This document shows positions 24,039 to 27,973 of a DNA stretch of 27,973 nucleotides, one piece after another. The position numbers were made by a program, and so were the translations under genes. How positions within the stretch are numbered: position 1 is the stretch's first letter; the number at the start of each line of letters is the position of its first letter. Source of the DNA: a bacterium (lineage in GTDB: Bacteria > CAIWAD01); contig JAUXWS010000072.1 of the NCBI GenBank assembly GCA_030685015.1, forward strand, positions 1 to 27,973, in the 5' to 3' direction. The notes under the pieces were generated by a model. That model saw only the letters and a list, made by a program, of their open reading frames with translations, was not told the DNA's origin and ran no database searches.

Positions 24039-24240
24039 AATCGCTATCGGGATCGCTATGGGGATCGGGATCGAGTACCACGTCCCTGGTTCGGTCCTGC
24101 TCGATGCGCGGGTGTGAGAGCTATGCCGGCAGGGCAGCCATCTCGTCGCGAGGGAGGAGTTCGATATCGATATCGATATCGATATCGATATCGATCCCGA
24201 TAGCGATCCCGATAGCGATCCCGATAGCGATGGGGATTGG
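24039..24240. repeat. Inverted arrays of GATNNC hexamers
   Basis: The right array (24163-24240) consists of thirteen consecutive six-base units: five GATATC, three GATCCC-GATAGC pairs, then GATGGG and GATTGG. The left array (24039-24075) carries the reverse complement of the same units (GCTATC, GGGATC and variants) in about six copies. The two arms, about 87 bases apart, can pair over 12-base GATAGCGATCCC-type segments, and GATATC is self-complementary. The arrays fill the 373-base gap between the divergent sucA and arginine deiminase genes. Six-base periodicity gives open dipeptide-repeat frames (Arg-Tyr/Asp, Ser-Ile) that I regard as incidental. Confidence 0.88.
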
Positions 24241-25533: not shown

Positions 25534-25580
25534 CGCTGGCCGCTGGGCTTGCGGCTGTCGCTGTCCTCCCGGCAGGGTTC

Positions 25581-25653
25581 TGTCATCCCAGTGAAAGTTG
25601 GGATCCCACGGGCCGCTCCAAGTCCTGTCATCCCGGCGAAAGCTGGGATCCCA
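25581..25653. repeat. Two copies of a TGTCATCCC...GGGATCCCA element
   Basis: Copies at 25581-25608 and 25626-25653 begin 45 bases apart and differ at three positions (CCCAGTGAAAGTTGGG against CCCGGCGAAAGCTGGG). Each is an imperfect inverted repeat around GAAAG. This resembles the GTCATTCCCGCGAAAGCGGGAATCC family dispersed in many bacterial genomes. Confidence 0.8.
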
Positions 25654-25705
25654 TGTGCCACTCCAGCATTTCCCATGTCTTGCGGCGCAAGCGCCACGCC
25701 ACCTT

Positions 25706-26121: not shown

Positions 26122-27558
26122 GTGGCCCGCAACATCACGCCCCGCGCCCAGGACTATTCCGAGTGGTACCTGGACGTCATCAAGGCCGGCCAGCTGGCCG
26201 ACTACGCCCCCGTCAAGGGCGCCATGGTCATCCGCCCCACCGGCTACGCCCTGTGGGAGAGCATCCAGGCCGACCTGGACCGGCGCTTCAAGGAGACGGG
26301 CCACGTCAACGCCTATTTCCCCCTGCTCATCCCCGAGTCCTTCATGACCAAGGAGGCCGAGCACGTGGAGGGCTTCGCCCCGGAGTGCGCGGTGGTCACC
26401 CACGGCGGCGGCAAGAAGCTGGAGGAGCCGCTTTACATCAGGCCCACGAGCGAGACGATCATCGGCCACATGTACGCCAAGTGGCTGAGCAGCTGGCGCG
26501 AGCTGCCCATTCTCATCAACCAGTGGGCCAATGTCCTGCGCTGGGAGATGCGCACGCGCCTCTTCCTGCGCACCAGCGAGTTCCTCTGGCAGGAGGGCCA
26601 CACCGCCCATGAGACGGCGGAGGAGGCGCAGGAGGAGACCCTGCGCATGCTCGAGGTCTACCGCGCCTTCGCCGAGGACTTCCTGGCCATCCCGGTGGTG
26701 AAGGGCCGCAAGACCGAGCAGGAGAAGTTTCCCGGCGCGGTGGCGACCTACTGCATCGAGGGCTTCATGCAGGACGGCAAGGCCCTGCAGATGGGCACCA
26801 GCCACAACCTGGGGCAGAACTTCGCCCGCGCTTTCGAGATCACCTTCACCGGGCGGGACAACACCGAGCAGTTGGCCTGGACGACCAGTTGGGGCGTCTC
26901 CACCCGCCTGGTGGGCGCCCTCATCATGGCCCACTCCGATGACGACGGCCTCGTCGTGCCGCCCCGCATGGCGCCGCGCAAGGGCGTGGTGGTGCCTCTG
27001 TGGAAGAGCGAGGAGGAGCGCGGCGCGGTGGAGCCCTTCGCCCGCCGCGCCTATGAGCTGCTGCAGGGGAAGCTGGGCGCCCTCAAGGTGATCTGGGACG
27101 GCGATGTGGACAAGCGTCCGGCCGACCGCTTTTTCGGCTGGGTGCAGCAGGGCATCCCCTTCCGCCTGGAGATCGGCCCCCGCGACGCCGCCCAGGGGAC
27201 GGTCTGCCTTGTCCTGCGCCACAGCCGCCAGAAGCTCATTCTCAGCCTGGCCGAGCTGGAGGAGCGGATCGAGGGCCTGCTTGAGACGATGCAGGAGGAA
27301 CTCTTCCGCCAGGCCCTGGAGCGCCGCCAGGCCGGCACCCGCCGCGTGGAGAGCTGGGAGGAGTTCCAGGCGGCCATTGCCGATCGCTGCTGGGTGGAGG
27401 CCCACTGGGACGGCACCACCCAGACCGAGGCAGCCATCAAGGAGGCGACCAAGGCCACCATCCGCTGCCTGCCCTTCGACTGGCCGGAGGAGGCCGGCCG
27501 CTGCGTGTTCAGCGGCCAGCCCAGCACTCGGCGTGTCCTCTTCGCGCTCGCCTACTGA
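26122..27558 (+). CDS. proS: Prolyl-tRNA synthetase, archaeal/eukaryote-like (type 3)
   Basis: This class II aminoacyl-tRNA synthetase charges tRNA-Pro in the cytosol. The 478-residue protein lacks the INS editing insertion of the E. coli type and matches the short archaeal/eukaryote-like group, also found in some bacteria. Visible are the motif 2 region (EEPLYIRPTSETI at 101-113, then NQWANVLRWE and RTSEFLWQEGHTAH) and the motif 3 region (STRLVGALIMAHSDDDGLVVPP). The C-terminal extension is present and ends with the conserved Tyr (VLFALAY). Most cysteines of the zinc site found in some relatives are absent (GRCVFSGQPS). The start is GTG at 26122, six bases after GAGGA. The frame is open from 25951, but that part is repeat-rich and has no family similarity. 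Confidence 0.96.
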   Translation: MARNITPRAQDYSEWYLDVIKAGQLADYAPVKGAMVIRPTGYALWESIQADLDRRFKETGHVNAYFPLLIPESFMTKEAEHVEGFAPECAVVTHGGGKKLEEPLYIRPTSETIIGHMYAKWLSSWRELPILINQWANVLRWEMRTRLFLRTSEFLWQEGHTAHETAEEAQEETLRMLEVYRAFAEDFLAIPVVKGRKTEQEKFPGAVATYCIEGFMQDGKALQMGTSHNLGQNFARAFEITFTGRDNTEQLAWTTSWGVSTRLVGALIMAHSDDDGLVVPPRMAPRKGVVVPLWKSEEERGAVEPFARRAYELLQGKLGALKVIWDGDVDKRPADRFFGWVQQGIPFRLEIGPRDAAQGTVCLVLRHSRQKLILSLAELEERIEGLLETMQEELFRQALERRQAGTRRVESWEEFQAAIADRCWVEAHWDGTTQTEAAIKEATKATIRCLPFDWPEEAGRCVFSGQPSTRRVLFALAY

Positions 27559-27576: not shown

Positions 27577-27613
27577 AATGAGAAGCGCGCGTCCACCGGA
27601 CGCGCGCCTCATT
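27577..27613 (+). terminator. Hairpin terminator after proS
   Basis: GCGCGCGTCC (27585-27594) and GGACGCGCGC (27598-27607) form a perfect 10-bp stem with an ACC loop. It is extended by AATGAG (27577-27582) pairing with CTCATT (27608-27613) across an AA bulge. It starts 19 bases after the proS stop. The T-tract is minimal, but the position and stability favour a terminator role. Confidence 0.65.
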
Positions 27614-27620
27614 CGGGTTG

Positions 27621-27973
27621 GCTGATCAGAAGCTGATCGGCCTCGGTGTCTTGGTCGGCTGCATCCGCCCCTAGCAGGGCCGCGCCCCGCGCCGGTCCTG
27701 CGGGCGGATCAGCCGCTGAACCTGATCAGAAGTAGATCGGCCTCGGTGTCTTGGTCGGCCGTATCCGCCCCTAGCAGTGCCGCGCCCCGCGCCGGTCCTG
27801 CGGGCGGATCAGCCGCGGTATCCATTCACAAGCTGCTCAGCCGCGATGTCTTGGTCGGCTGCATCCGCCCGTGGCAGTGCCGCGCCCCGCGCCGGTCCTG
27901 CGGGCGGATCAGCCGCGGTATCCATTCGAGAGATACTCGGCCTCAGTATCCGGGTCGGCTGCATCCGCCCGTG
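27621..27973. repeat. 100-bp tandem repeat, three full copies and one partial, running off the window
   Basis: Units start at 27621, 27721, 27821 and 27921 (53 bases of the fourth) with exact 100-base spacing and no indels. A 36-base core is identical in the three full copies (27681-27716, 27781-27816, 27881-27916), and the remaining 64 bases vary moderately. Each full unit can fold into a long imperfect hairpin. In copy 1, CGGCTG (27656-27661), TCCGCCC (27664-27670) and GCAGG (27674-27678) pair with CCTGC (27697-27701), GGGCGGA (27702-27708) and CAGCCG (27710-27715). A 100-base unit is not a multiple of three, so a repeated protein domain is unlikely. No gene is seen in it. Confidence 0.92.

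Follow-up and report, generated by a model that had tools for sequence, protein, structure and literature searches.

The window, the whole of contig C72 (27,973 bases) in an assembly of 3.61 Mb and 105 contigs, ends within a tandem array of units of about 100 bp, each able to form a long hairpin. The array lies downstream of proS and raises the question of what such a repeat is: a selected DNA or RNA element, part of a gene, a cluster of mobile palindromes, or a minisatellite. It is an insertion private to this lineage, located in the spacer between two convergent genes and neither coding nor dispersed, and in our judgement it is probably a non-coding minisatellite of the VNTR type.

Architecture of the array

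TRF detects the array at 27637-27970, with a period of 100, 3.3 copies and a score of 473. Counted from 27617, the units measure 100, 100, 100 and 57 bases with no indels, so that the array reaches the end of contig C72; the three full units and partial fourth at 100-base spacing of the original prediction are thus borne out. Each unit consists of an imperfect palindrome of about 60 bases and a linker of about 36. The copies are direct and head-to-tail, with a unit length in the range of minisatellites and VNTR loci (tens to about 100 bp). The features of the region are:

26122..27558, + strand: proS, prolyl-tRNA synthetase, left flank of the array (Pfam ProRS-C_1, tRNA-synt_2b, HGTP_anticodon; congener ortholog 87% identical)
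27577..27615, no strand: terminator-like hairpin between proS and the array, from sequence and folding; aligns in position with the congener's bidirectional terminator-like hairpin
27617..27716, + strand: array unit 1, hairpin 27656-27715, 26 pairs
27717..27816, + strand: array unit 2, hairpin 27756-27815, 24 of 26 pairs
27817..27916, + strand: array unit 3, hairpin 27856-27915, 25 of 26 pairs
27917..27973, + strand: array unit 4, cut at the end of contig C72; probable continuation at 44321-44369 of contig C50, minus strand

All six frames of the array contain stops, as is expected of a non-coding, frame-independent VNTR. Since, in addition, 100 is not a multiple of three and the neighbouring met-zincin gene ends exactly at the edge of the array, the array is not part of a repetitive protein gene, the finding that had been named as one that would overturn the original prediction. 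A CRISPR array was also considered and rejected; its spacers should be unrelated, whereas the 'spacers' here can be aligned to each other and are homologous.

The other side of the array

The right-hand extent of the array, hidden at the window end as had been pointed out, was found on contig C50, whose last 49 bases are the only other match to the unit in the genome. Read in reverse, C50 opens with GGTCGGCTGCATCCGCCCGTGGCAGTGCCGCGCCCCGCGCCGGCCCTGC, followed directly by the stop codon of a met-zincin of 906 aa (DUF5117/DUF4953) that is convergent with proS. C72 and C50 overlap exactly over 21 bases at their ends. Support for the join comes from the congener G002 (contig DYSB01000164.1), in which the same convergent gene pair is adjacent (proS 87% identical; met-zincin 63% identical over the last 75 residues). 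If the overlap is the true join, the array spans about 385 bases and holds four units, of which the last breaks off inside the hairpin; if copies were collapsed, the number of units is greater than four. The unit count may be in error, as both contigs break inside the array.

In G002 about 90 bases separate the two stop codons, and the array is absent. This spacer contains one hairpin flanked by A/T runs on both sides, by appearance a bidirectional terminator. This spacer is intact, and shows that the array was gained in the present lineage or, less parsimoniously, lost from that of the congener; the absence at a syntenic site also provides the variable presence among close relatives that is typical of VNTR loci. 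In G003, of the same family, proS and the met-zincin gene are not neighbours; G001 yielded no proS, and its met-zincin gene is cut by a contig end. The hairpin at 27577-27615 of the window is without the flanking A/T runs of its counterpart in the congener, and looks like a decayed terminator. That the unit derives from the ancestral spacer was also considered and rejected; GTCGGCGGATATTACCCGTG in the congener and GTCGGCTGCATCCGCCCGTG are similar, but not significantly so (P about 0.07-0.1).

Structure of the unit hairpin

Unit 1 folds into a single long hairpin, in which 26 pairs are capped by a CCC loop, at -64.1 kcal/mol for the 100 nt, compared with -43.9 +/- 3.6 for shuffled sequences (z -5.7). 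When the hairpin region is folded alone, units 1, 2 and 3 give -50.5, -39.0 and -43.7 kcal/mol, more stable than 100%, 99.2% and 99.9%, respectively, of 4007 sampled 67-base windows of the same genome. As single-stranded DNA, unit 2 shows a modest excess over shuffles (z -1.8). The hairpin of the original prediction therefore exists, but with 26, 24 and 25 pairs in the three units rather than 18.

Five columns vary within the hairpin. Three of these are in bulges and harmless, including the predicted change from CTA to GTG, which is neutral to pairing; the other two are in the stem and each breaks one pair (T-C and C-A). The C50 unit additionally has a G-U pair converted to G-C. A hairpin is thus found in every full unit, and no two-sided compensatory change was seen among the three to four units compared; an RNA function is accordingly without support from covariation, although so few units could hardly show any. 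A scan of the region found no T-run terminator and no sigma-70 promoter, so that of the features of an intrinsic (bidirectional) terminator the GC-rich stem is present and the T run is absent. No Rfam family matches the array at gathering score. Two sub-threshold matches were taken as chance: the tail of Atu_C9 on the GC-rich proS hairpin, and MIR820 (E 0.8).

Variation between the units

The full units are 90, 86 and 83% identical in pairwise comparison. Twenty of the 100 columns vary: the linker, of 36 bases, accounts for 15 of them and the hairpin part (64 bases, positions 37-100) for 5, a concentration in the linker that is significant (Fisher p = 1e-4). The 5' arm had been placed in the variable part of the unit; these counts contradict that assignment. 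The longest invariant run covers 38 columns, at unit positions 63-100 (P = 0.0004 with 20 variable columns placed at random), and the window contains three exact copies of its sequence, where none is expected. The predicted invariant core of 36 bases is therefore present, and slightly longer, in the three full units; it does not extend to the last unit on C50, which has GGCCC where the others have GGTCC and in which the outer 3' arm is missing. Of the five changes in the 5' arm, three fall in its four unpaired positions (hypergeometric p about 0.009, calculated post hoc and on few independent events). Adjacent units are the most alike: units 1 and 2 are 90% identical, while units 3 and 4 share the same linker type and the GTG bulge. 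Stepwise tandem duplication is expected to give such a pattern.

Searches for the unit elsewhere

Neither DNA nor covariance searches of the 3.6-Mb genome found a dispersed copy of the unit, and 40 other genomes gave none either, except for a 41-bp match in G029 (L003), a GC-rich stretch judged from its sequence to be chance. The search for the core in the genome and its relatives thus returned no copy outside the array on C72 and C50. The covariance model of the hairpin matched the array only, within its own genome, and nothing in three relatives; one match in C9 (L195; E 0.6) is GC-rich and was likewise judged to be chance. An exact scan for a 24-base core gave 0 matches in GTDB 220 (84,980 species genomes) and in IMG/VR (2.9 million viral contigs), collections which may omit the genome of the window itself. 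Plasmids and phages contained no match to the array at blastn sensitivity.

Other repeats of the genome

A TRF census of a 0.95-Mb sample of the genome revealed further tandem arrays. By the criterion of stops in most frames, several of these are non-coding; others resemble protein repeats. The non-coding arrays have periods of 44, 135 and 37 bp, and several are located no more than a few hundred bases from a contig start, which suggests that such arrays break the assembly. Units of 44 bp belonging to one family are found at the starts of C1 and C17, and also in C48, C67 and C94; C10 opens with 822 bases of the 135-bp unit, and the 37-bp array is in C41. The array between proS and the met-zincin gene is therefore one of several minisatellites and no isolated oddity.

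Some further repeats were observed. The 44-bp non-coding family (GGTCAGATGATGGGTCAGACC...) occupies L091 192-343 and L107 163-331 as well as its sites in C48, C67 and C94, repeatedly near contig starts. At L100 1-931 (the start of C10) the 135-bp tandem unit contains (TCGATA)n runs, and a similar TCGATA run is present at 24161-24231 of the window. L145 7088-7384 consists of GGTGNTGCCCT 11-mers with a 44-bp period (6.8 copies), and all three frames of one strand are open. A palindromic repeat, GTCATCCCNGCGAAAGCNGGGATCC, occurs as two tandem copies at 25580-25665 of the window and in ten copies in the whole genome at up to 2 mismatches; it is a dispersed, REP-like family, similar to repeats of other bacteria.

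Origin of the array

Long hairpins promote replication slippage and template switching. By such a process, a stretch of the proS/met-zincin spacer able to form a hairpin may have been duplicated at a site free of coding constraint. Unequal recombination between the copies would then have expanded and homogenised the array, the hairpin most strongly, while the linkers drifted. The resulting array, a private minisatellite with a unit of about 100 bp that was seeded by its hairpin, would have no essential function. Of the two explanations in the original prediction, selection or very recent homogenisation, homogenisation of a structured unit fits the data. Selection of the unit as DNA or RNA does not find support: compensatory changes are absent, two arm changes break pairs, the congener has no ortholog, and no match was found in Rfam, plasmids, phages or other genomes. 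Some observations do count against a minisatellite. The concentration of variable columns in the linker and the preference of 5' arm changes for unpaired positions could also be explained by selection on the hairpin, and the unit hairpins are extremely stable relative to windows of the genome.

The hairpin is better conserved than the linker, and the neighbouring terminator-like hairpin has no T runs, which leaves room for a role between the two genes. RNA hairpins formed from either strand could act as a barrier to convergent transcription, stopping or stabilising the 3' ends of the proS and met-zincin mRNAs in place of the T-run-less terminator hairpin. The array sits exactly between the convergent genes, adjoining the met-zincin stop codon, its hairpins are very stable (about -39 to -50 kcal/mol), and the congener's hairpin at the same place has the T/A runs that are missing here. 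However, no hairpin is followed by a T tract, nothing is conserved outside the genome, and the two arm changes break pairs with none compensatory. We regard this explanation as unlikely. A specific form of it, in which an array of T-run-less hairpins superseded a decayed bidirectional terminator as a multi-copy barrier, kept by homogenising the hairpin and not the linker, is slightly less probable again; much the same applies to a role as barrier or mRNA-end stabiliser in general. Should the hairpins indeed stand in for a decayed terminator, the locus would offer a modest natural example of how tandem duplication gives rise to a new transcription barrier.

A cluster of REP/BIME/REPIN-like palindromes mobilised by a RAYT transposase is very improbable: the unit is palindromic, extragenic and clustered, but it exceeds REP length, all copies have the same orientation, and the many dispersed copies expected were not found in the 3.6-Mb genome by either search. 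An artefact of short-read assembly, suggested by the two contigs ending in the array with a 21-base overlap, is equally improbable, because units differing at 20 columns are distinct sequences and the flanks are syntenic with the congener, leaving only the unit count in doubt.

Comparison with known repeats

Assigning the array to the private minisatellites, and joining two contigs by synteny, is mostly housekeeping. Arrays of this kind have been surveyed in 'Satellites in the prokaryote world' (PMC6749651), and are few in most species. Like bacterial satellites and minisatellites (VNTR loci), the array is head-to-tail, intergenic and species-private, with near-identical copies; it differs in that its unit holds an unusually long and stable hairpin. 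The stem-loop sequence families (PMC2267715) are likewise intergenic repeats with a common stem-loop, but they are repeat families defined by clustering within genomes, whereas the present unit is confined to one array. REP, BIME and REPIN elements (PMC3116915, PMC2817692, PMC3733652) are 20-40 bp long and usually of high copy number genome-wide, with BIMEs alternating in orientation. They too are clustered extragenic palindromes, with proposed roles at transcript 3' ends; the array unit has 100 bp and is repeated directly, at one place.
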